From: an uncultured Opitutia bacterium
GTDB lineage: Bacteria; Verrucomicrobiota; Verrucomicrobiia; Opitutales; CAJWYM01
Assembly: GCA_913049555.1 (NCBI GenBank)
Contig: CAJWYM010000033.1
Span: 1-40,558 of the forward strand
Reading direction: 5' to 3'
Length of the DNA stretch: 40,558 nt
Positions 585 through 24,676 of the stretch are shown piece by piece. Below the pieces are notes generated by a model. That model saw nothing but the letters and a program-made list of their open reading frames with translations. It made no database searches and had not been told where the DNA came from. Every line of letters begins with the position of its first letter. Within the stretch, counting starts at the first letter, position 1. Made by a program: the position numbers and the translations under genes.

Positions 585-2348
585 TCATTGAGGAAGCATC
601 AAGTCGGAGCTAACGCTCTGGAGATCAGCATTTTTTAACTCTTCAGTCTTGAATATGTTATTTAAAGTGCTCTCATGAAAAATGTTGTCTTCAATCCTGA
701 TATTTTTGGAATGACTCAAGTCAATAACAGGCCGATCGTTGTGGACAGCTTTGTAGTTTTCATTCTTTTTAATTTCGTTTCCTTCAAAACAAAACCCGTC
801 TATTGAAAAACCATATAAAATTGCATTTTCGAAAGTATCGAAGACATTGTCTCTAATTGTAATATTTTTATGAAAATAGTGTTCCGATCGATACTTTTTT
901 TCTATTTCTGGATCGATAATGATGACTGCTTTGCCCCAAGGACCATAATTACAATCGTGAAAATAATTATTTTGAATCAAGATCTCTCTAACGGGACCAC
1001 TCTCAAACCAATTATTAGTGTCTCCGGAAATTTTAATGGCAGCTCCTGATGCAGATACATGGTTATTCTCTATGAGAACTTTACCCCTTGTAGTGATTAA
1101 AAATCCCCTAGCCCGATTGTTCCTTGCTGTGCATCCATGGATAATTAAATTTGGAATCCATGTTGTATTTTCCATAACAAACCCAATATCCACCGAGTCA
1201 GCAATTTCATTTTTAAAAGATACGACTGCAAAATCTTTGTTTAAAAAATGCAAGGACTCCATTTCATTTTTAGAAACCGATTGGAATGTTTTAGGATTTA
1301 CAAATTGAACAGAGTCTCCCGAAAATCCAATCTCCACCCCCTTTTGCTCTGAGTGTACCAATTCAAGAATGAGTGTCTTAGGATCCAATTTTTCCTTAAT
1401 TCTAGTGTAAATACCATGTATGTTGGCAGGGTCATCCAATTGATTCTCAAACAAACAATTTTTCAACTCTACAACTCCTTTGCAGGAAACAAAATGAGTG
1501 GCATCTACGGTTGTAGAAAACAGTCGATTGGATCCCTTCTTTGGAGAAACAGAACAATTGTCCAATTTTATATTTTCGGTAAATTGAGCGATCACCCCCA
1601 TTGCTCCTGCATGATGAACATGAACATTGTTTAAAAGAACATTGGAACTGTTTTTAATAAAGATTCCAGGGCAATTCCTTTTGTAATGCCGCAGAATTAA
1701 CTCATTGCCTACAGTAGGTCTTTTATTGAAGGGATAATGAATGCGGACAATCCCCTCAGAAATCGAATCAAATTTTATGAACTCAGTCTTTATAAAACCA
1801 GAACCACAGCCATCTCCGCTTAAATAAGCTGGAGCTTTAGTCCGAGGATCCATTTCAAAAATACCATCCACTAATTCCTCCTCATATCCCTCCCCCAGAA
1901 ATAAAAGCTTATCCCCCTTGACTCTATATGGATAATCCGGAGAAATTTTGATAACAATAGAATCTTCATGGGTCTCACAGACAGTTCCTTGAGAATAAAA
2001 AGGTCTTTTCCAGTCAATGGAAAAGTTTTTCAATTCAATATGCCGGCAATTATCAATGATAAAAGGAGTGATTTCGCCATGATATATGAACTCAGATCCA
2101 TTCCCCTCAATAGTTAAATGGTCGAAATCACTCATCAAAGCTGGGCTTCTCTTTAAACTGTCGAAATTATTAGATACATAAAAGAATTCTTCCCGACAAA
2201 AGTCTGAGTAAAAATGATACTCTCCCTTCTCAAATTCGATTTCAGATTTTAGATTTTCATTAGAATGGATTGAATTTAAGGATCTAAAAAGCTCTAAAGT
2301 GGTATCTTTGCTTTTATCAGAATTAGGTGAGAGTAAAATTTTATTCAT
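585..2348 (-). CDS. GH110 family alpha-1,3-galactosidase-like right-handed beta-helix protein
   Basis: The 587-residue product matches the GH110 pattern: repeated beta-helix rungs, SIDWKRP near residues 110-116, GAMGVIAQ near 248-255, VDATHFV near 281-287 and an acidic pair D305-D306 in QLDDPANIHG. GH110 enzymes are inverting exo-acting glycosidases that remove terminal alpha-1,3-linked galactose; characterised marine members act on carrageenan-type oligosaccharides and others on blood-group-B-like glycans. There is no signal peptide, so the protein should be cytosolic and act on imported oligosaccharides. It is divergent from the sugar ABC transporter, and a perfect inverted repeat lies 8 bases upstream of its ATG, suggesting shared control. 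No Shine-Dalgarno sequence is visible. The family call is from remembered motifs; the exact substrate is inferred. Confidence 0.85.
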   Translation of the reverse strand: MNKILLSPNSDKSKDTTLELFRSLNSIHSNENLKSEIEFEKGEYHFYSDFCREEFFYVSNNFDSLKRSPALMSDFDHLTIEGNGSEFIYHGEITPFIIDNCRHIELKNFSIDWKRPFYSQGTVCETHEDSIVIKISPDYPYRVKGDKLLFLGEGYEEELVDGIFEMDPRTKAPAYLSGDGCGSGFIKTEFIKFDSISEGIVRIHYPFNKRPTVGNELILRHYKRNCPGIFIKNSSNVLLNNVHVHHAGAMGVIAQFTENIKLDNCSVSPKKGSNRLFSTTVDATHFVSCKGVVELKNCLFENQLDDPANIHGIYTRIKEKLDPKTLILELVHSEQKGVEIGFSGDSVQFVNPKTFQSVSKNEMESLHFLNKDFAVVSFKNEIADSVDIGFVMENTTWIPNLIIHGCTARNNRARGFLITTRGKVLIENNHVSASGAAIKISGDTNNWFESGPVREILIQNNYFHDCNYGPWGKAVIIIDPEIEKKYRSEHYFHKNITIRDNVFDTFENAILYGFSIDGFCFEGNEIKKNENYKAVHNDRPVIDLSHSKNIRIEDNIFHESTLNNIFKTEELKNADLQSVSSDLMLPQ

Positions 2349-2356
2349 ATTTTATT

Positions 2357-2380
2357 ATATATACTATTATTAGTATATAT
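2357..2380. promoter_or_regulatory. Inverted repeat, probable operator of the GH110 gene
   Basis: Perfect inverted repeat with 10-base arms, ATATATACTA at 2357-2366 and TAGTATATAT at 2371-2380. Written around a 6-base centre it is ATATATACT-N6-AGTATATAT, the same layout as the repeat at 2586-2615. It sits 8 bases from the GH110 start codon and occupies the place where a ribosome binding site or -10 element would be expected. It could be a repressor site; AT-rich promoter sequence is the alternative. Confidence 0.6.
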
Positions 2381-2585
2381 CAATTTATTTTTAAATCTTT
2401 TTTTATTTTTAAAATAAACATTCATGAAAAAATCCTCATGGATTATAAAATTCTATAAAACAAAGAATGCTCTATTCAACTTGAAAATAACCATATATGG
2501 CTCTATTTAAAGGGAGACCTTCATCCTTGAATACCGATTATAAGTTTGAAATTAGGAGCGGGCAAAAAATTTAATTGCTAAAGTT

Positions 2586-2615
2586 ATTATATATACTTTA
2601 TTTAGTATATATAAT
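2586..2615. promoter_or_regulatory. Inverted repeat, probable operator of the sugar ABC transporter operon
   Basis: Perfect inverted repeat with 12-base arms, ATTATATATACT at 2586-2597 and AGTATATATAAT at 2604-2615, around a 6-base centre. The right arm overlaps the ATG of the substrate-binding protein gene at 2614. Core half-sites TATATACT and AGTATATA are identical to those at 2357-2380, with a centre-to-centre distance of 232 bases (about 22 helical turns), which would be compatible with looping by one regulator. Confidence 0.6.
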
Positions 2616-4095
2616 GAATAAATTGATTATTTTTTGTATTTTTATGATTTTAATGGGGTCTTTGTATATCATTTTGACAGAGCCACACTCTGATGATTCG
2701 ATCCCGACTCTGTATTGGGTTACAGACGCCAATCCGACTCGTTATCAACAAATAGAGCTTTTTCATGATTGGTTGATTCAAAACAAACATACCACTCCAG
2801 AGGGTAATGCCATCGTTCGAATAAAATTAGAAACAGGGGGCATTGATAATAAAAAGCTAATCCATGGGGTGTCTGGGGTTGCCGGCGATCTGATTGATTT
2901 GTCTGACATCGATCAATACCAAAAATTAGGAATCCTTGAAGACGTAACAGAACAAGGAAAAAGTTTAGGCTTTGATATCCATCAAACTTTTCCATCTCTC
3001 AAACCGAGTCTGTACTTTAACGACAAACAGTATGGTTATCCATGCAATGTGTCTATTCATTCATGCTGGGTAAATAGTGAGACTTTTGCAAAATTAGAGA
3101 TGGAAGCCCCTCCTGAAAAATGGGATGTAGAAACTTTCGAAAAAATAGGCAAGGAATTCGTCTTAAAAGCAAACAAAGAAAAAGAAAGGCAGGAAGTGTT
3201 CTTTATGAACAAGCCCTCTGATTGGCTTTTAATTCCCTGGTTGACAACTCTTATTCGATCTATGGGGCAATCTACATTCAATGAAACGTTGACAGACTCC
3301 ACTCTAGATCAAGGGGCTTTTGCGGAAGCTTTGAGATTGAACCTAAAATGGGTAGAAGAGGATCATTTGTTTCCATCCAGTGCAGAGGCCTCTTCATTCA
3401 ATTCAGAGGGTGGATTTGGAGGATCTTTAATGTCTTTATTTCTTGAAGGCAACTATGGGATGATAACGACCGGAAGATGGGTATTGGTCAGACTGAGAGA
3501 CTTAGAGGAGCCCCCTAGAGTAAGTGTCAGTCGTTATCCTTTTAAATATTTTGAAAACTCAGTGGTTATGACCCGGGCAGCCTGTATCTACAAAGGGAGC
3601 AAACATAAAAAATTAGCGGCTTTGTTTCTATCCTTCTTGGCTTCTCAGACCTACAATGAACAAATCGTCCAGTGCGCAGATGCCCTTCCCTCCAATCCCA
3701 AATACTTGCATTCTAATGAATTTCTGAAACCAATCCATTTTCCAAATGAGTGGGGAGCTCACGAAGTTCCTGCTAGAAGCGCTCAGGAGATTTCCATAGC
3801 GGAAACCAAGAGTCCTTATATTTCCTACTCTAGTATTGTCAAAGTGATTCGGGAAGCCGATGAAAAAGTCCAAAATCATATTTCCGAACCTGTAGAAGCT
3901 GCCAAAGAGGCAAATTTAGCAATTAGGGAGGAAATTCAGAGAAACTTAAAGCACCGTCCTAAACTGAAGAAACAATTTGATAAAGATAAATTTCGGCAAA
4001 ATCAAATCAATCGAATGAAAGAAAACGGAGAAAAAATTCCAACTTCACTGATCTCCAATCCTTTTTACAAAAAATATTACAATGACAAAAAATAA
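2614..4095 (+). CDS. Sugar ABC transporter substrate-binding protein (family 1)
   Basis: A binding protein for oligosaccharide import. The N-terminus has an uncleaved-looking hydrophobic segment (LIIFCIFMILMGSLYIILT) without a lipobox cysteine, so it is probably membrane-anchored. The middle resembles MalE/UgpB-type proteins: PTLYWVTDANPTRYQQIELF near the start, an FNSEGGFGG stretch, GNYGMITTGRW and KLAALFLSFLAS typical of the second lobe. About 60 highly charged residues at the C-terminus (PKLKKQFDKDKFRQNQ) extend beyond the usual fold. The frame is open back to a TTG at 2575, but those 13 codons lie within the inverted repeat, so I prefer the ATG at 2614 although no ribosome binding site is seen. 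It overlaps the next permease gene by 14 bases. Confidence 0.82.
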   Translation: MNKLIIFCIFMILMGSLYIILTEPHSDDSIPTLYWVTDANPTRYQQIELFHDWLIQNKHTTPEGNAIVRIKLETGGIDNKKLIHGVSGVAGDLIDLSDIDQYQKLGILEDVTEQGKSLGFDIHQTFPSLKPSLYFNDKQYGYPCNVSIHSCWVNSETFAKLEMEAPPEKWDVETFEKIGKEFVLKANKEKERQEVFFMNKPSDWLLIPWLTTLIRSMGQSTFNETLTDSTLDQGAFAEALRLNLKWVEEDHLFPSSAEASSFNSEGGFGGSLMSLFLEGNYGMITTGRWVLVRLRDLEEPPRVSVSRYPFKYFENSVVMTRAACIYKGSKHKKLAALFLSFLASQTYNEQIVQCADALPSNPKYLHSNEFLKPIHFPNEWGAHEVPARSAQEISIAETKSPYISYSSIVKVIREADEKVQNHISEPVEAAKEANLAIREEIQRNLKHRPKLKKQFDKDKFRQNQINRMKENGEKIPTSLISNPFYKKYYNDKK

Positions 4096-5560
4096 GGAAT
4101 TCAAAAACACTTTGTTAGGCCTCGCATTCTTATCTCCCAATATACTTGGCTTTTCAATTTTTACAATCTTTCCACTTGGTTTCAGTTTAGTGATGGCTTT
4201 TAGTAACTGGGACTTATCCCAACATAATATTTTCCATTCCAATCCAATTCACTGGGTATTCTTCGACAACTTTTCTGCTTTATTGAGTTCCAACGAATTC
4301 TGGAAATTCTTTAAAAATACACTTTTTTTCATGTTGGGAATCCCTGTTAGTATCGCTGGGAGTTTGATGGCAGCAATCTTACTTAATCAGGACTTGAAAG
4401 CTCCTTCTAAGAAAATCAGAAATCAACTTATCCTTGGTTCTTTACTGATTTTAGGAATCATCGTTACGATCATGACAGGTTTAAAAGCAAGTGTCATTTC
4501 AATATTTTTAAGTTCTATTTTTACTTTGATTTTGATGGGTGGATTGTTAGGGGGTTCCACTCTGTATAGAACCCTCTTTTATACTCCGCATTTCACTGCG
4601 GGTGTTGCGACCTTTATTTTATGGAAAAAACTATACAATCCTCAGAGTGGACCATTGACTAATTTTCTTCAACCGGTGCTAGACCATGTAAGCATTTTCA
4701 TTGAATTTGTTGGCAGTGAAAATATTGGATTTTTGAAGTATGCAGCTGCTACTCTTTGCTTTTTATCCCTTTCTTATGGATTAAAAACGATCTTAAAAAT
4801 GAGAAAAGAACTGGAATTAGGAAATGGGAGTTTCGCAATCGCCTATTTTTTATCCGCGTTGCCCTCTTATTTCATTGTGAAATGGTCTCCAGACAACCCA
4901 GTATCAGCAGTTTTACAAATCATCCTAATCGGAACTTTGTTCTATTATTTCGCATCCTTTTTTAAAGTCTCGAAACCAAAGACTCCAATAGATGATGGAA
5001 TCGGGAAAGCGATATGGATTGGATTTATTTCCATGACTGCGCAATTCATTTTGATCGGTTTGTGCAATCTTTTCCAAAATATTCCTGCAATCATGCAAAG
5101 TCCACTTTCGACCCCCAATTGGTTGACGGATTATAATTGGGCAAAACCCTCTTTGATGTTTATGGGATTTTGGGCCTCCATCGGTTCCAATCAAATGCTC
5201 CTGTACCTTGCCGCCCTCTCCAATTTATCACCAGAACTTCAAGAAGCTGCAGAAATTGATGGGGCTTCAAAATTTCAAAAATTTTGGAATGTAACCTGGC
5301 CTCAATTGGCACCAGTAACTTTCTTTATTTCTATTATGGCTGTGATTCAAGGCATGCAAGGAGGATTTGAGGTGGCAAAAACTATGACTGGTGGAGGACC
5401 CGCAGGGGCAACTACAACGCTTGAGTATTATATCTACGACGAAGGGTTTGCATCAGGAAGACTTGCTTATGCCTCGGCAATCTCTTGGGTCTTATTTGCA
5501 ATGATATTCCTTCTGACTCTATTTAATTGGCGGTTTGGGAACCGTTTTATAGATGAATAA
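4082..5560 (+). CDS. Sugar ABC transporter permease, MalF-like, with enlarged membrane domain
   Basis: First inner-membrane subunit of the sugar importer. The EAA loop that docks the ATPase is clear at about residue 388 (EAAEIDGASKFQKFWNV), followed by a conserved C-terminal half with MTGGGPAGATTTLEYYIY. At 492 residues it is much longer than the roughly 300 usual for this family. The extra material lies between the first membrane helices (ending AILLNQ, about residue 104) and the usual TLYRTLFYTP segment, and again before the EAA half, and contains additional hydrophobic stretches such as LILGSLLILGIIVTIMTGL. MalF of enteric bacteria also carries an insertion, but that one is a periplasmic domain rather than extra helices. 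The start overlaps the binding-protein stop by 14 bases, implying translational coupling. Confidence 0.82.
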   Translation: MTKNKEFKNTLLGLAFLSPNILGFSIFTIFPLGFSLVMAFSNWDLSQHNIFHSNPIHWVFFDNFSALLSSNEFWKFFKNTLFFMLGIPVSIAGSLMAAILLNQDLKAPSKKIRNQLILGSLLILGIIVTIMTGLKASVISIFLSSIFTLILMGGLLGGSTLYRTLFYTPHFTAGVATFILWKKLYNPQSGPLTNFLQPVLDHVSIFIEFVGSENIGFLKYAAATLCFLSLSYGLKTILKMRKELELGNGSFAIAYFLSALPSYFIVKWSPDNPVSAVLQIILIGTLFYYFASFFKVSKPKTPIDDGIGKAIWIGFISMTAQFILIGLCNLFQNIPAIMQSPLSTPNWLTDYNWAKPSLMFMGFWASIGSNQMLLYLAALSNLSPELQEAAEIDGASKFQKFWNVTWPQLAPVTFFISIMAVIQGMQGGFEVAKTMTGGGPAGATTTLEYYIYDEGFASGRLAYASAISWVLFAMIFLLTLFNWRFGNRFIDE

Positions 5561-5724: not shown

Positions 5725-6549
5725 ATGAAAAGATCAAAATCACAATTCGTTCTCAATAATTTAGTTCTCACACTAATAAGCCTACTCTTGTGCTTGCCGT
5801 TTATATGGATGATCCTGACAAGTCTAAAACCTCTGGAGGATGTCGGCAAAGCGGAATGGTGGCCCAAAATATTCTTGTGGAGTAATTATAAAACCATTTT
5901 CACCACTGAACATATCCATTATGGTCGATGGTACTTCAACAGCTTATTTATAGCATTCTGCGTAACTTTTTTACAGGTGATTACCAGCTCTTTGGCTGCC
6001 TTTGGATTCAGTCGGATAAAATGGAAATGGAGGGATCGCATCTTCTTGTTGTATTTAGCAACTATGATGGTTCCAGCTCTCATCTTGATGATCCCGAACT
6101 TTCAGATCATGATAGAAATGGGGCTGATAGACTCTTACTTGGGTCTCATAATTCCAGCATCTTTCAGTGCATTTGGAACTTTTTTAATACGACAGTTTAT
6201 GATGAGTATTCCGAAATCATTTGATGAAGCGGCGGAGATCGATGGTGCTAACTCTTGGCAAGTTTTTTGGCAAATTATTTTACCTCTCTCAAGGCCTGGT
6301 TTGATTACTCTGACGATTTTCACATTTATGGGAAATTATAACTCCTTTTTTTGGCCAATAGTGATGCTTAAAAGTGAGCACAAATACACCCTGCCAATTG
6401 GTCTGCTTTTTTTCGAATCTTCCCAAGGTCAACAAACAAACTTACTGATGGCCGCAATCACCATGTCTGTTATTCCTATGATTTTAGTTTTTGTTTGTTT
6501 GCAAAAGCATCTAGTCAAAGGAATCCAATTAGGTGGAGTTAAAGGATAG
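5725..6549 (+). CDS. Sugar ABC transporter permease, MalG-like
   Basis: Second inner-membrane subunit of the oligosaccharide importer, 274 residues, the usual family length, with about six hydrophobic segments. The EAA loop is at about residue 168 (EAAEIDGANSWQVFWQI) and the region following it (FTFMGNYNSFFWPIVML) is typical of MalG. It pairs with the longer permease encoded upstream, but 164 bases separate them, in contrast to the overlap between the binding protein and the first permease. No ATPase gene follows, so the ATP-hydrolysing subunit must be supplied from elsewhere, as with shared MsmK-type ATPases. Confidence 0.87.
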   Translation: MKRSKSQFVLNNLVLTLISLLLCLPFIWMILTSLKPLEDVGKAEWWPKIFLWSNYKTIFTTEHIHYGRWYFNSLFIAFCVTFLQVITSSLAAFGFSRIKWKWRDRIFLLYLATMMVPALILMIPNFQIMIEMGLIDSYLGLIIPASFSAFGTFLIRQFMMSIPKSFDEAAEIDGANSWQVFWQIILPLSRPGLITLTIFTFMGNYNSFFWPIVMLKSEHKYTLPIGLLFFESSQGQQTNLLMAAITMSVIPMILVFVCLQKHLVKGIQLGGVKG

Positions 6550-13644: not shown

Positions 13645-15045
13645 TTACCCACACATCACTTTACCGTCAGAGAGATCATAATAAGCGACCATGTAGGGAT
13701 GAGATTCATCGAAAGTAGTGAGAGGCCTTGGGTCTGATACCAATCCCGAAGCCCTATTATTTTTTCCTTCAGTATTAGAAAAATCATCTCCTAATTCCTG
13801 TCTCCAATATTCAATTCTTTTTCTCAAAGTTTTCACAATCTCCGGATTCTCCTGAGCGACATTCTTTTCTTCGCCGGGATCTAAACTTAAATTGTACAAT
13901 TCCTCAACATCCTCAGGGTCTAACCAGACACCATTTTTAGGACTTCTACATACATGAAGCTTCCAAGAACCTGCGCGCAGGGCACAAAGATTATTCATAC
14001 CATAGAAAACAAACTCATCCCGAGGCGGTGATTTATCAAATTCTGCCCGGAGAAGGGGTTCTAAATTTACGCCATCAATTGTCCTTGATTCATCCAAATC
14101 GGCTCCAATTACAGAAGCCAAAGTAGGTAAAAAATCAATCGAGGAAACGATCTCTGAGCAGGTGGTTGCGGCAGGGATCATCCTCGGCCATTTCATAATG
14201 CATGGCACCCGAAATCCACCATCCCAAGTCGTTGATTTTCTCCCTCTTAATTCTCCATTCGAACCTCCCTCATCTCTTGCTCGGGAACCATTATCACTGG
14301 TAAATATAATCCATGTGTTTTCTACAATTCCTAACTTTTCCAACTCATACTCAAGCATTCCTAAAACCCAATCAATACATGCTACTGCTCCACCATAGCC
14401 ACCATTTTTAGAATTTTTCAGGAAATGTGCAGGAACAAACAGAGGCACATGAACATACATATGAGCAAGATAAAGGAAAAATGGGTTTTCCGGATCTTTT
14501 CGTATAAATGAAAGGCTTTCTTGCAAATAACGTTCTGTGAGTCCTCTCTGGTCGGGTTGCTCTTGAATGACATCTTTATCTTTGATCAAAGGCAAAGGAA
14601 CTTCGATTTTTGTACCCCTCTGGATACCCATGTCGTTGCTGTATGGAAGACCATAATACTCATCAAATCCAAAATTTGTCGGTAGGAATTCTTTTTGATC
14701 TCCACAATGCCATTTGCCAACATGCTTCGTCCTGTATCCACTTCTCTTCAATGTACTCGCGATTGTTTCTTCATCAGGATTCAAACCATTTCTAGATCCG
14801 GGGAACAATACAGCACCTCCATCAAAGTCCCCAAATCCAATTCTTGGAGGATAGCATCCTGTCATCATAGCTCCTCGAGAAGGACTGCAAACACAGGAGG
14901 CCATATAAAAATCTGTGAATAACATACCCTCTTGAGCCATCTTATCTAGGTGTGGAGTTTCATTTAGCTTGGATCCATAACAACCCAAATCTCCATATCC
15001 TAAATCATCACAATTAATTAAAATAATATTTGGTTTTTCGCTCAT
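13645..15045 (-). CDS. S1-type sulfatase, cytosolic
   Basis: A formylglycine-dependent sulfatase of 466 residues that removes sulfate esters from sugars. The N-terminal metal site is clear (NIILINCDDLGYGDLGCYG) and the modification motif is C53-S-P-S-R57 followed by TG at 62-63, so C53 would be converted to formylglycine. GKWHCG near 110 and the TSDNG segment (ending at about 253) complete the active site. There is no signal peptide, unlike most polysaccharide sulfatases of marine PVC bacteria, so it should act on imported oligosaccharides. It is divergent from an AraC regulator and close to a GH2 gene. The exact substrate cannot be told from sequence; galactose or N-acetylgalactosamine 6-sulfate are possibilities. 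Confidence 0.9.
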   Translation of the reverse strand: MSEKPNIILINCDDLGYGDLGCYGSKLNETPHLDKMAQEGMLFTDFYMASCVCSPSRGAMMTGCYPPRIGFGDFDGGAVLFPGSRNGLNPDEETIASTLKRSGYRTKHVGKWHCGDQKEFLPTNFGFDEYYGLPYSNDMGIQRGTKIEVPLPLIKDKDVIQEQPDQRGLTERYLQESLSFIRKDPENPFFLYLAHMYVHVPLFVPAHFLKNSKNGGYGGAVACIDWVLGMLEYELEKLGIVENTWIIFTSDNGSRARDEGGSNGELRGRKSTTWDGGFRVPCIMKWPRMIPAATTCSEIVSSIDFLPTLASVIGADLDESRTIDGVNLEPLLRAEFDKSPPRDEFVFYGMNNLCALRAGSWKLHVCRSPKNGVWLDPEDVEELYNLSLDPGEEKNVAQENPEIVKTLRKRIEYWRQELGDDFSNTEGKNNRASGLVSDPRPLTTFDESHPYMVAYYDLSDGKVMCG

Positions 15046-15081
15046 TTATTGCCTTCTTTTGAATTTGATTACGAGTTGTTT

Positions 15082-15144
15082 ATAGATATAATAATACCCT
15101 AATCCAAATCAAAAATAACATATCTATTATTGATATTTAATATC
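15082..15144. promoter_or_regulatory. Inverted half-sites in the sulfatase/AraC divergent region
   Basis: ATAGATAT at 15082-15089 is the inverse complement of ATATCTAT at 15120-15127, 38 bases apart centre to centre, and a further short palindrome GATATT-T-AATATC lies at 15132-15144. Both fall in the 110-base gap between the sulfatase and AraC starts. They may be regulator half-sites, but the DNA is very AT-rich, so chance matches are plausible. Confidence 0.3.
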
Positions 15145-15155
15145 TCCTCTGAGTC

Positions 15156-15938
15156 ATGATCCATGTCCGAAATGTTTTGCTTGTTCCGTGTATGCCCTTA
15201 CAGATGCCCAGCCACGAACACGAAATTTATGAATTGCACTTTATCATAAAAGGAAAAGCTTTCTATAAAACAGAGAAAAGACCTTTCCATTTAGAAGCTG
15301 GAGATATTTCGATTACTTTGCCAGGAGAGAGACATTCTCTGGTTCCTGCAAAAGAATCCATCGATACGGCTCAATACATTGTTTTTTTTGAAATTCTAGG
15401 AAGTGAGGACGAATTACTCAGAAAACAAATTCATCATTTTAGAGCAAACTACAAAAAAATCTTTATTGGATTAGAAAAAATTCCCGAATTCAGTCAAATT
15501 CACCAAAATAGGCAGTTACAATGTGCCTACCACACAAAAGCGCTTGAAGTTTCTTTCGCTTCCATTCTCTACAGTGCACATTCCCAGAAAAAATCCATAC
15601 CCAACTGGTTGAATCTGGCAATTCAGGAAATGCACCATAATATCCACAATAATATAAATATAGAACAAATTTGTCTCCATATCCAAGTGAGTGCCTCTCA
15701 CCTTAGTCGAGAATTTAAACATCATTTCGGCAGAACTCCCCTACAATATTTTCAATCCTTGAAAATCCACATGGCAAAAAGTTATCTGACCGAGAAAAAC
15801 CTAACCATCTACCAGATCTCTGATTTACTCGGATATGCAAACGAATTTCATTTCTCCAGATCGTTTAAAAAACACACGAAAATTTCCCCAAGTGCCTATC
15901 GAAACTCAACAAAAATTGGAGAAACTATTCCTGACTGA
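15156..15938 (+). CDS. AraC-family transcriptional regulator, cupin sensor domain
   Basis: A 260-residue regulator. The N-terminal half is a cupin-type sugar-sensing domain (HEHEIYELHFIIKGKAFYKTE, then LEAGDISITLPGERHSL). The C-terminal ~100 residues are the double helix-turn-helix domain, with HIQVSASHLSREFKHHFG as the first HTH and TIYQISDLLGYANEFHFSRSFKKH plus SPSAYR as the second. It is divergent from the sulfatase gene and convergent with the GH2 gene, whose last codons it overlaps by 14 bases. The likely role is induction of the sulfatase (and perhaps GH2) by a sugar intermediate. Confidence 0.9.
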   Translation: MIHVRNVLLVPCMPLQMPSHEHEIYELHFIIKGKAFYKTEKRPFHLEAGDISITLPGERHSLVPAKESIDTAQYIVFFEILGSEDELLRKQIHHFRANYKKIFIGLEKIPEFSQIHQNRQLQCAYHTKALEVSFASILYSAHSQKKSIPNWLNLAIQEMHHNIHNNINIEQICLHIQVSASHLSREFKHHFGRTPLQYFQSLKIHMAKSYLTEKNLTIYQISDLLGYANEFHFSRSFKKHTKISPSAYRNSTKIGETIPD

Positions 15939-18816
15939 TATACTTAATTAAATTGCAAAGCAATTTGTCCGCGACCGGATCTTTACCTAGGTTTTCAACA
16001 ATATAAAGAGTGGTCAAAATCATTTTCCCAGCTCCATAATTTTGAGCGACCATATCGGTTCCCCACCAAGCATCTCCTGGCCCTACATAATTCTTTTTGG
16101 CATCGTCCAAGTTTGGAAAACGATCGAAGGCAATAGAGGTAATCATTTTATCGCCTTCCTCTGCGTGCATACTGTGCCATGGACTCAAATTCTCATACAC
16201 TTCCACCATGGATTGGTGAACTGGCAAACCTTCAAAAACTGGATGATCATGAGCCATGTGCAATATCCCGTCCCAAAGGCCTGTAGCTCCTCTTAAAGTT
16301 GGTTTTGTCGGCAACCAATCCTCCCCTTTGAAGCCTTCTTTCTTATCATAACTTTTAGGACCCATGGGAACTCTTTCTTTTCCAGGAACCTGTAAGTAGA
16401 TTGCCTTGCCCCCTTTTTTCACAAACGCATTTAAACTTTTAGTAAACTCAAAATCACCCACTCCATTCCAATCTTTGATGTGCCCAACGACTACTAGGGT
16501 ATCCAAAGAGGTTTCTACTCCAAAATTAGAGACTGCAACGTTTTTGCCCTCAAAAAAAGATTTCAATTGCCCTCCTGGATCTACAACAGCCACCGAATCC
16601 ATGGATGGTTGTAAATCCTCATTTTTGATCACCATAAAAGATTCTTTAGATTCACTCAGCATAGCACCAGAATCGTCTTTCAATAAAATTTCTACCTGAT
16701 AATTGCCTTCAAAATTATGAGTCTCAAAAACTTCAGAATAGAACAGCTCACTTCCATTTATTAGGTTGGATTGCAATCGATTGCTTTTTAAAACTTCCCC
16801 TTGAGGGTTTGAAACCTTGAGTTCCAAAGTCCCTGAAATCTCTTCAAATTCGTTGATTCCAATAATCTCTAATTCAGCATCTTCTCCAGCATAAATATTG
16901 CGAGGTAAAATTCTGAGAACGGTTTGACGTGGTTGATTGGCTGCTTTTGTGCCCTCAAAGGCTTCTTGCTTCGGATTTCTCCAAAGATCCAAAATGCCTG
17001 CTCCAATAATCCAGTTGCCCGCAGTCAAAGCGTGAATACAATAACCATTTACCGTTGGATTGCAACGAGCCGCCTCCATCATACGGCGGTTTGCTGCACC
17101 ATGCACTTTTTGCTGCTCTAAATAAAATGCACTCAGATTTTCAAAGATAGCCTCATATCCTGCTTTTCGGAAAACCACTTCTGTCTGTGCATGCAACTTT
17201 TTGTGGTATTTATAAGGAGGAGTGATTGGGTTTCCTTTTTTCTCAAACTCCAGATTGTTTGCAGCTAGATCTCCTAGGCTTCCATAGCCTAATTCTGAAA
17301 CAAAAGACATCCTTCCTGGAACCACATTTTTTCCAGGGGTTTTTATAACCTTCCCCATGGCCTCCTTTTCTTCCTCCGTTTTTCCAATGACTAGGAACGC
17401 ATCAAACTTATTCTGATTGATATTAGGTCCTGGGTAATGATGAATATCATTGAATGGAGTCGGCTCATATTCATAGGGTAAATAAAGGTTCGCTCCATAT
17501 GCCCAGCCACCGGACTCATCCAAAATCAATCGAGTCGGATCTAACTCTCTAGCTTTTATGGACATTGGATGGAGCATATTCATCAATATGGGTCGATGGA
17601 GTTCATTAAAAAGCTCCCATTGAACCACACAGGCTCTATTTCTATCTCTAAGAATCGATTCCCTCAATTCAGTCTCCACTCTTCTAGGCAAATAAGGAGA
17701 GGCATTGGGTTTACCCATGCATTCAACGACCAAGCTCCCGACAACCAGAACTCCCATTTCATCTGCAAGATCCAACCACATTTTTGAGGGGGGTTTTCTC
17801 CATGGACGAATCATATTGAAGCCACATTCTTTAGCCAACTGGATTTCCCGTATTGCCATTTCACGACTGTCAGGATTCGCAAGCTTTACTGGATACAAGG
17901 CTTCAAAGAAAGTAGCTTTTAAAAACAGGGGCTTTCCGTTGAGCTGCAACTGTTCGTTGCGAATTGTAAATTCTCGCATCCCAAAATTTTCCAGCTTACA
18001 TTCTAACAAGGTCCCCTCTCTTAAAATTCGAGAGTCTACCTGATAAAGAAATGGATTTTCAGGACACCAGTAAGTTGCATCCTCTAAATCAATACGCAAA
18101 GATGATTTGTTGATACCAGGATTCAACTCCATTGTTTCTCGGAGAGTGACTTTTTTTTCACCCTCAACCTTAGAAAAGATTGTGACCTCTAAATCAATCT
18201 TTTGCTTAGAACGATGGGTGTTGTGGATCTCATAATGCAAATCCACAGAGTCCTCTGATAAATGGGTCTCAATAAAAAGATCCTTGTGGTGAATTTTGTC
18301 CGTAGCCTCTAAGCAGACAGACTGCCAGATACCCCCAGTATAGGCACCCCTCCATTGGGGCGTTTGCATAGGGCCCATTCCGTCGATCACTTGATCTGTC
18401 ATAGTAACCGGACCGACTACACGGAGGGTCAAGACATTCTCTTTTTCATAATCTAAAAGATGCTCAATATTAAACTGAAATGGAGTGAATCCTCCCTCAT
18501 GAAAACCCAAAACCTCATCATTAAGATAAACTTCCGCCAAATAATTGACCGCATCAAATTTTAAATAAACAACCTTTTCTTTCCAATCCTCGGAAAGCTC
18601 AAACTTTTTCTGATAAAAAGCAACGCCCTCGTAGTCTTCTTGGATCTCCTCCCAACAACAGGGAACCGAAATCCTCTGACATTTACTATGAGCTTCAAAG
18701 ACCCTTGAATTCATCCATCCAGCTTCGCGACCTTCATTGGAAGCATCGAATAATATATTCCATTCCCCATCCAAGGATAAATTCATATTTTCTAAAGTTT
18801 TTGGATTCCCTAACAT
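15925..18816 (-). CDS. GH2 family glycoside hydrolase (beta-galactosidase-like), cytosolic
   Basis: A 963-residue enzyme. The GH2 order is visible: sugar-binding jelly-roll domain (LDGEWNILFD at ~16-25, YLKFDAVNYLAEVYLN at ~84-99), immunoglobulin-like domain, then TIM barrel with N404-E405 in WELFNELH as acid/base and E508 in FVSELGYG as probable nucleophile. From about residue 740 there is an extra domain resembling the glutamine-amidotransferase-like fold found at the end of some PVC glycosidases. There is no signal peptide. Beta-galactosidase is the likely activity, although GH2 also holds beta-glucuronidases and mannosidases. Together with the sulfatase and AraC gene it forms a small catabolic locus. 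The 3' end overlaps the AraC gene by 14 bases. Confidence 0.85.
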   Translation of the reverse strand: MLGNPKTLENMNLSLDGEWNILFDASNEGREAGWMNSRVFEAHSKCQRISVPCCWEEIQEDYEGVAFYQKKFELSEDWKEKVVYLKFDAVNYLAEVYLNDEVLGFHEGGFTPFQFNIEHLLDYEKENVLTLRVVGPVTMTDQVIDGMGPMQTPQWRGAYTGGIWQSVCLEATDKIHHKDLFIETHLSEDSVDLHYEIHNTHRSKQKIDLEVTIFSKVEGEKKVTLRETMELNPGINKSSLRIDLEDATYWCPENPFLYQVDSRILREGTLLECKLENFGMREFTIRNEQLQLNGKPLFLKATFFEALYPVKLANPDSREMAIREIQLAKECGFNMIRPWRKPPSKMWLDLADEMGVLVVGSLVVECMGKPNASPYLPRRVETELRESILRDRNRACVVQWELFNELHRPILMNMLHPMSIKARELDPTRLILDESGGWAYGANLYLPYEYEPTPFNDIHHYPGPNINQNKFDAFLVIGKTEEEKEAMGKVIKTPGKNVVPGRMSFVSELGYGSLGDLAANNLEFEKKGNPITPPYKYHKKLHAQTEVVFRKAGYEAIFENLSAFYLEQQKVHGAANRRMMEAARCNPTVNGYCIHALTAGNWIIGAGILDLWRNPKQEAFEGTKAANQPRQTVLRILPRNIYAGEDAELEIIGINEFEEISGTLELKVSNPQGEVLKSNRLQSNLINGSELFYSEVFETHNFEGNYQVEILLKDDSGAMLSESKESFMVIKNEDLQPSMDSVAVVDPGGQLKSFFEGKNVAVSNFGVETSLDTLVVVGHIKDWNGVGDFEFTKSLNAFVKKGGKAIYLQVPGKERVPMGPKSYDKKEGFKGEDWLPTKPTLRGATGLWDGILHMAHDHPVFEGLPVHQSMVEVYENLSPWHSMHAEEGDKMITSIAFDRFPNLDDAKKNYVGPGDAWWGTDMVAQNYGAGKMILTTLYIVENLGKDPVADKLLCNLIKYISQE

Positions 18817-23239: not shown

Positions 23240-24676
23240 ATGCTTCTTAAAGTTCTGTTTGTTTCATTCCCCTTTTTTTTGCAACCGATCCTCGGTTCTG
23301 CTTCAGATCACTTGGGGACTTCCTTCATCCATTTTAATTTTAAAGATTTCTTAGAAGTTATAAGCTTGGCCAATTATAACACTCGACTTGTGATCTTAAG
23401 CACCTCCATTCTTGGGATCGCCTCAGGATCTATTGGTAGTTTTTTGCTTTTACGCAAAAGGTCTTTAATTGGGGATGCAATTTCGCATGCCTGCCTGCCT
23501 GGAATAGGCATTGCATTTTTAATTATGACCGCCCTTGGCAATACAGGTAAATTCCTGCCAGGACTGCTTTTGGGGGCTAGTATTAGTGGGTTTGTTGGAG
23601 TTCTGGTAGTCATGGCTATTCGAAATACAACCAAACTTAAAGACGATGCAGCCATGGGAATTGTCCTGAGTATTTTCTTCGGACTCGGAGTAGCCCTATT
23701 GAGAATTATTACAGAGATCCCGGGTGCAAGTGCAGCCGGTTTAGAATCCTTTATTTATGGTAAAACTGCATCCATTGTTCTGTATGATTTTTGGTTGATT
23801 TCACTGGTTGCAATTTTGGTTACAGTGGCTTCTTTTATATTGTTAAAGGAGTGGACTCTTTTATGTTTTGATTCAGGCTACGCGGCCACTCAAGGATGGC
23901 CTGTTTATGCATTGGACCTTTCTTTATTAGTAGGGATCACTCTGGTGACCGTTATCGGTCTACAATCTGTAGGTCTCATTCTAATTATTGCCTTTTTGAT
24001 TATTCCTCCATCAGCAGCTCGATTCTGGACCGAGAATCTAAAGAAAATGCTAATAATCTCAAGCGTTTTAGGAGGACTCAGTGGATGGGTAGGAGCGACG
24101 ATGAGTGCGCTTTTTCAGAATTTACCGGCTGGTGCAGTCATCGTTTTAGTAGCGACCACAATCTTTATTTTCAGCATGCTTTTTGGAACTTCAAGAGGCC
24201 TTTTAATTCGTTTTATAAAGCATACAAAATTAAATCGAAAAATTGGGCGAGATCACCTTATGCACTCTTCTTACGAGGTTCTGGAGGAGATGGCGATGCA
24301 TGAAAACAGAATGATTAACAATCAAAAAATAAAAAGGTCTCGCTTATTACAAAGAAGATCATGGATGGATACCGAACTAAAAAGTCTCATTCATACCTCG
24401 AAAAAGAATGGACTCATTGAAAGATACACCGACGAATATATTTTGCTCGGGGAAGCTGGATTTGCAGAAGCCGCCAGAACTACAAGAAATCATCGACTTT
24501 GGGAAATGTATTTAATTGAGTACGCTGAAGTAGCACCGACAAATGTGGATCGAGGGGCGGATTTAGTGGAACATGTTCTCGGTGCAGATATCGTTCGAAT
24601 GCTAGAAAGCAAGATGAAAACCTCCCCTTACATGTATATCCCTAATCCACACTCAGAATCAGAGGGGCTTTCCTGA
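23240..24676 (+). CDS. Metal ABC transporter permease fused to a DtxR-like domain
   Basis: A 478-residue two-part protein. Residues ~1-320 are an ABC-3 family permease with about eight to nine hydrophobic segments, including LLRKRSLIGDAISHACLPGI and the conserved VGLILIIAFLIIPPSAARF. Residues ~330-478 are cytoplasmic and resemble the DtxR/MntR group: a winged-helix-like part (MDTELKSLIHTSKKNGLIER, LGEAGFAEAARTTRNHRLWEMYL) and a helical part (GADLVEHVLGADIVRMLESK) that corresponds to the metal-binding and dimerisation domain. Such fusions occur in TroC-like permeases of PVC and related bacteria. The domain may sense metal and gate transport or act as a membrane-tethered sensor. It abuts the next permease gene with no gap. 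Confidence 0.88.
   Translation: MLLKVLFVSFPFFLQPILGSASDHLGTSFIHFNFKDFLEVISLANYNTRLVILSTSILGIASGSIGSFLLLRKRSLIGDAISHACLPGIGIAFLIMTALGNTGKFLPGLLLGASISGFVGVLVVMAIRNTTKLKDDAAMGIVLSIFFGLGVALLRIITEIPGASAAGLESFIYGKTASIVLYDFWLISLVAILVTVASFILLKEWTLLCFDSGYAATQGWPVYALDLSLLVGITLVTVIGLQSVGLILIIAFLIIPPSAARFWTENLKKMLIISSVLGGLSGWVGATMSALFQNLPAGAVIVLVATTIFIFSMLFGTSRGLLIRFIKHTKLNRKIGRDHLMHSSYEVLEEMAMHENRMINNQKIKRSRLLQRRSWMDTELKSLIHTSKKNGLIERYTDEYILLGEAGFAEAARTTRNHRLWEMYLIEYAEVAPTNVDRGADLVEHVLGADIVRMLESKMKTSPYMYIPNPHSESEGLS

Follow-up and report, generated by a model that had tools for sequence, protein, structure and literature searches.

Genes and Palindromes of the Intergenic Region

The window analysed in this study is a stretch of 40,558 bases that makes up the entire contig C33. 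A glycosidase gene and a sugar ABC transporter operon diverge from a 265-bp intergenic region with a G+C content of 21%, and a palindrome lies at each end of this region (Table 1). The left gene was assigned to GH110 by its matches to PF23763 (1.7e-19), PF23764 (2e-12) and PF13229 (1.5e-13). The start of the solute-binding protein gene at 2614 is backed by the colinear N-termini of two paralogues, which are about 50% identical and are encoded on contigs C1 and C18.

Table 1. Coordinates of the genes and predicted regulatory features (positions are those of the window unless contig C51 is named).
Feature	Position	Strand	Remarks
GH110-type glycosidase	585..2348	-	GLAA-B beta-barrel I and II domains, right-handed beta-helix
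Sigma-70-like promoter of GH110 (predicted)	2354..2383	-	TTGATA-18-TATAAT, proposed from an 11/12 consensus match only; overlaps operator 1
Operator 1 (predicted)	2357..2380	.	ATATATACT-ATTATT-AGTATATAT, at the GH110 promoter
Operator 2 (predicted)	2586..2615	.	ATTATATATACT-TTATTT-AGTATATATAAT, overlaps the solute-binding protein ATG at 2614
Sugar ABC transporter solute-binding protein	2614..4095	+	Start backed by the aligned N-termini of two paralogues
ABC transporter permease (BPD_transp_1)	4082..5560	+	Overlaps the solute-binding protein gene
Second ABC transporter permease (BPD_transp_1)	5725..6549	+	Operon probably shared with the preceding transporter genes
GntR-type regulator (candidate)	C51:14896-15957	-	GntR-type DNA-binding domain and LacI/GalR-type sugar sensor

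The two palindromes were found with exactly the positions and sequences given in an earlier description made without database searches (the sequence-only reading). Site 1 lies 8 bases ahead of the GH110 ATG (2348-2346, minus strand), and site 2 has longer arms than site 1. Read in one orientation, the two sites are identical at 25 of 29 positions, and their centres are 232 bp apart. A search of the window allowing up to three mismatches returned both sites against 0.02 matches expected, and two matches occurred in no shuffle.

Palindromes can arise by chance in AT-rich DNA, or a single one may have been copied by a local duplication without function. The base composition of the intergenic region is in keeping with such an origin, and at least one perfect palindrome with 9-bp arms was present in 16% of 3000 dinucleotide shuffles of that region. 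Two such palindromes were present in 1.2% of the shuffles, but a pair sharing both arm and spacer was present in none of the 3000. In addition, the likeness of the two sites spans the palindrome while the centres differ, and the exact motif is found nowhere else in 3.1 Mb. Chance or functionless duplication is thus a highly improbable origin for the pair.

At the GH110 gene, the arms of the palindrome make up parts of both the -35 and the -10 hexamers of the predicted promoter. Since the palindrome coincides with this promoter-like sequence, a protein bound to it would exclude RNA polymerase. Transcription of GH110 is predicted to start at the ATG or just ahead of it, which would give a leaderless message. 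Leaderless initiation had been suggested for both genes in the sequence-only reading. The GH110 promoter fits this suggestion, with its -10 hexamer TATAAT followed by AAAATATG, but the transporter start does not: a TATAAT at 2610-2615 overlaps the transporter ATG, and the promoter reading used for GH110 fails there. The absence of a Shine-Dalgarno sequence, to which attention had been drawn, holds at both starts but is nothing special, as only 4 of the 29 starts in the window have a motif of the GGAG/GAGG/AGGA type. With motif-like sequences at so few starts, the genome appears to depend little on Shine-Dalgarno sequences.

Upstream of the paralogous operons on C1 and C18, no such palindrome is present. 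An operator common to the transporter paralogues was therefore rejected, and the absence also counts against the interpretation preferred below. The C18 operon (L008:1-8152) lies beside the gene of an AraC-type regulator, which is a different type of regulator, and beside a glycosidase-like gene and a sulfatase gene, so that C18 has a paralogous sugar cluster.

Matches in the Genome and a Third Site

The exact motif TATATACT-N6-AGTATATA occurs in the 3.1-Mb genome solely at the two sites in the window, so that the palindrome was rejected as a genome-wide repeat. That the genome has two perfect sites and no more, each at one of the divergent starts, agrees with the proposal of the sequence-only reading that one regulator serves both units. 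Many scattered matches with no link to carbohydrate genes, which would have spoken against that proposal, were looked for across the genome and did not turn up.

The sole near match in the genome is a third site at C51:16016-16037, with two mismatches to the motif; a control pattern searched at two mismatches likewise yielded one match, and this counts against the preferred interpretation. The third site lies between a GntR-type regulator gene and a divergent operon that encodes a GH110-like beta-helix protein and a sulfatase. The half-site AGTATATAAAAATG abuts the ATG of the C51 regulator, which is the same placement as that of AGTATATATAATG at the transporter gene. When the pattern was relaxed to WTATACYNNNNNNRGTATAW, a widening made once the third site was known, the matches without mismatch were the three sites only, genome-wide. 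Matches to WTATACYNNNNNNRGTATAW with one mismatch were no commoner than those to a reversed control pattern.

There are four GntR-type genes in the genome, and no such palindrome is present upstream of the other three. The sequence-only reading had pointed to LacI, GntR or ROK regulators encoded just left of the window. GntR as the kind of regulator is supported but the place is not, as the window is the whole contig and the candidate gene lies on contig C51.

A related palindrome, TTATACTTTGTCTTGTATAA, is present at G000:C11:12596-12615 (L080). It lies ahead of a sulfatase gene, 7 bases from the ATG, and this gene diverges from that of an AraC-type-looking regulator. This palindrome has one mismatch to the relaxed pattern and so may be due to chance.

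The Candidate Regulator

A profile of the C51 regulator and six homologues (seven sequences) matched solved structures in both halves: the GntR domains were those of YvoA and AraR, and the sensor domains were of the LacI/PurR/CcpA type, the sensor matches having E values down to 1.9e-18. Among these seven aligned sequences, Pfam GntR was found in all and Peripla_BP_3 in six. The N-terminus has a GntR winged helix-turn-helix: PF00392 matched the C51 protein with an E value of 5.3e-6 and 26.4 bits, slightly under the 27-bit cut-off, and scored 29.8 bits, above the cut-off, in the genome search. The C-terminal LacI/GalR-type sugar-binding domain was recognised with the profile, the match of the C51 protein alone being weak (3huu, E value 1.5e-4). 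The likeness to the DNA-binding domain of AraR is weak as well, with an E value of 0.079 for the single sequence and 7e-8 for the profile.

Both palindromes in the window are very probably operators of this one dimeric, sugar-responsive AraR-type regulator, which would repress the glycosidase and the transporter until a sugar binds. This reading draws on the sites themselves and their near-uniqueness, on the third site, which lies by the regulator gene, and on the related sites and the GH110 link in relatives described below. The gene context with GH110 points to galactosides rather than L-arabinose as the likely sugar of the regulator. The location of the regulator gene away from the window genes counts against the proposal, as does the low identity (23-32%) of its homologues.

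The operators might instead belong to another regulator, encoded in a part of the genome that was not assembled or lies beyond the contig end. The window starts at a contig end with its left neighbours beyond it, the genome is 95% complete and the third site is imperfect, all of which would suit such a protein. Against this, the sole further genomic match of the type lies at the promoter of a GntR/LacI-type regulator, and distant relatives share the geometry. A different, unseen regulator is thus unlikely.

Sites Upstream of Regulator Homologues

Homologues of the C51 regulator, 23-32% identical and mostly full length, were found in genomes of the order and the phylum and among named metagenome genomes of the PVC group; contigs were scanned for them with a three-sequence alignment. 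Within 300 bp upstream of 13 homologues, the pattern TATA[C/G]-Nk-[G/C]TATA was found with k=8 in five cases, including the window's own genome, and with k=7 in one. No site with any other k from 0 to 20 was found upstream of these 13 homologues, and dinucleotide shuffles averaged at most 0.013 sites per k. Once duplicates were removed there were 38 homologues in total. Of these, 10 had a site with k=7 or 8 in 12.4 kb of upstream DNA, compared with three sites in 158.7 kb of flanking DNA, so that the upstream density is about 40 times that of the flanks. At least one of the three flanking sites precedes a GH110-like gene adjoining the regulator. Under the strict pattern, 28 of the 38 homologues had no k=7 or 8 site, some with SYLT helices among them, and this counts against the proposed regulator, as does the lack of such a site directly upstream of distant GH110 and solute-binding protein homologues. 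A scan of the named genomes with the transporter protein gave no match.

The sites at relatives lie 20-130 bp upstream and have variable centres. For example, the site of a Victivallales homologue, TATAATATATAC-N8-GTATATATTATA, has perfect 12-bp arms, lies 36 bp upstream and is nearly the motif of the window, and the site at homologue L102 has an offset of -35. Among the homologues with a k=7 or 8 site, a SYLT recognition helix was paired with TATAC (4 of 4) and a SYMT helix with TATAG (4 of 4). These numbers are small; five cases gave rise to the rule, and the three added later agreed with it.

The link to GH110 recurs in two relatives. First, TATAG-N8-CTATA sites are present in G128 (contig C39) ahead of a GntR gene and of two GH110-like genes. 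Secondly, a GntR homologue in G053 (contig C13) clusters with a 39-40% identical homologue of the window GH110, a large prepilin-like protein and sulfatases, an arrangement similar to that at C51 in the window's genome. Proteins of 1045-1216 amino acids with a prepilin-like N-terminus adjoin a GntR/LacI-type regulator in three genomes (L009:8857-12126, L095:7827-11477 and L099:3913-7050), and GH110-like genes, sulfatase genes or both lie near the genes of these three proteins.

The placement of the sites also bears on a possible role of the palindromes in RNA, as start-codon hairpins that control translation or sense temperature. The transporter leader, folded alone, forms a 14-pair stem that includes part of the start codon (-14.0 kcal/mol, z -3.1), and the GH110 leader folded alone reaches -8.1 (z -1.9). 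However, any palindrome folds. The C51 site lies about 60-80 bp from the regulator ATG and the fold of that leader is not unusual (z -0.46), and the position and centres of the sites at relatives vary. In addition, the palindrome would lie outside the GH110 mRNA if the overlapping promoter drives this gene. A hairpin or riboswitch was rejected because a search of Rfam gave no match and the placement of the sites at C51 and at relatives is left unexplained; we consider this mode of action very improbable.

Comparison With Described Regulators

The presence of operators at regulator, glycosidase and transporter genes is ordinary for sugar repressors. The architecture of the C51 regulator is already known as well, being that of the AraR subfamily. 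AraR of Bacillus subtilis, a GntR family member of the AraR subfamily, regulates arabinan-degrading enzymes and sugar uptake as well as its own gene, and binds some promoters cooperatively at two in-phase boxes with formation of a small DNA loop (PMC4218819). Like AraR (PMC4218819), the C51 regulator combines a GntR winged-helix N-terminus with a LacI/GalR-type sensor C-terminus, and the palindromic operators predicted here are, as in AraR, at the promoters of its own gene, a glycosidase and a transporter. In contrast, AraR boxes resemble ATTTGTACGTACAAAT, while the sites described here are TATAC-N8-GTATA, in which AC stands before GT with eight bases between. Because the sites do not follow the AraR-box consensus, the C51 regulator is called AraR-like in architecture, and orthology to AraR is not claimed.

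In the HutC/FadR subfamily the GntR motif is NyGTNxACNy, with GT before AC and 2-4 bases between, and where a GntR divergon has separate sites, two in number, each generally lies by the operon that it controls (PMC4494728). The window resembles these double-site divergons in having divergent operons and two sites, each near its own operon. GntR operators are located in the promoter of the regulator's own gene and in those of operons with a linked function, and the sites predicted here are placed likewise. The AC-N8-GT polarity of the palindrome and its spacing differ from the HutC/FadR motif, and that subfamily has a different type of sensor domain. NanR of E. coli, another GntR protein, binds (GGTATA)3 direct repeats (PMC8012715). 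The predicted GntR-type control of sugar genes in the window would likewise use half-sites containing GTATA, but here the half-sites are inverted, unlike the direct repeats of NanR.

In another family (f11) of the same order, a palindrome that shares all 16 specified bases, TATATACT-N6-AGTATATA, is found immediately ahead of the arsR start codon. It differs in its surroundings, which are an arsenic-type operon and an ArsR-family gene, and the resemblance is probably convergent. In L018-L028 and L031 of f11 the conserved palindrome often has a central TTGACA and lies just upstream of an ArsR-family gene that is followed by an ArsP-type permease gene or arsC. Two f11 genomes have two overlapping copies of the palindrome, 16 bp apart. 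The f11 palindrome is probably an ArsR operator identical to the window motif.

The window sites might then be bound by an ArsR-family repressor too, given the perfect or one-mismatch matches in about 11 f11 genomes, which in the loci read were located at arsR starts and in several cases had the central TTGACA. However, none of the three sites adjoins an arsenic gene, and only one weak match to the f11 ArsR (E value 1.7e-4) was found in the window's genome, within a longer frame that resembles an ArsR-methyltransferase fusion. The genome has no close homologue of the f11 ArsR, so ArsR was rejected as the regulator and the common sequence is most simply read as a convergent AT-rich operator. 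There is very little chance that the window sites belong to an ArsR repressor. A palindrome alone does not identify its protein, and the match at f11 arsR is a warning in this respect.

Proposed Regulation

The AraR-like regulator of C51 could act as follows. Without inducer, a dimer of the regulator would bind both palindromes, and as a repressor rather than an activator it would keep the glycosidase gene and the sugar ABC transporter operon from being transcribed. The separation of the two sites equals 22.1 turns at 10.5 bp per turn and is near in phase, a single value that is weak evidence at such a distance; the DNA loop between them that the sequence-only reading had raised is possible. 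The inducer would probably be a galactose-containing oligosaccharide set free by GH110, and its binding would release the regulator from the palindromes. The third site probably brings the regulator's own gene and the divergent cluster of GH110-like and sulfatase genes under the same control.

If this is true, polysaccharide use in this uncultured Verrucomicrobiota lineage would have a first regulator-operator pair open to testing, and a GH110 glycosidase would be tied to its own importer. The motif and the recognition-helix rule would then allow regulons to be predicted for many AraR-like regulators of the PVC group. It would also mean that a GntR winged helix reads half-sites with a polarity opposite to that of the textbook motif.

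A broader proposal is more speculative, and we put it forward as a possibility that may well prove wrong. A widespread and undescribed PVC group of AraR-like regulators may read outward-facing TATA[C/G]-N7/8-[G/C]TATA sites where GntR proteins classically read GT...AC, and the choice between C and G would depend on a single recognition-helix residue (SYLT or SYMT). The operator arms in the window would double as the -35 and -10 elements of a promoter for a leaderless message, and one palindrome would thereby set the promoter, repression and the translation start. No description of the operator motif was found in the literature searched, where the motif itself brought up unrelated matches only.

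Other Features of the Window

A second carbohydrate cluster at 13645-18816, which has no palindrome, contains a sulfatase gene, the gene of an AraC-type regulator (15156-15938) and a GH2 glycosidase gene. The single frame at 23240-24676 encodes a permease-regulator fusion, in which an ABC-3 metal permease and an iron-dependent-repressor dimerisation domain (Fe_dep_repr_C) are combined, and it is adjoined by ZnuA-type and ABC genes.
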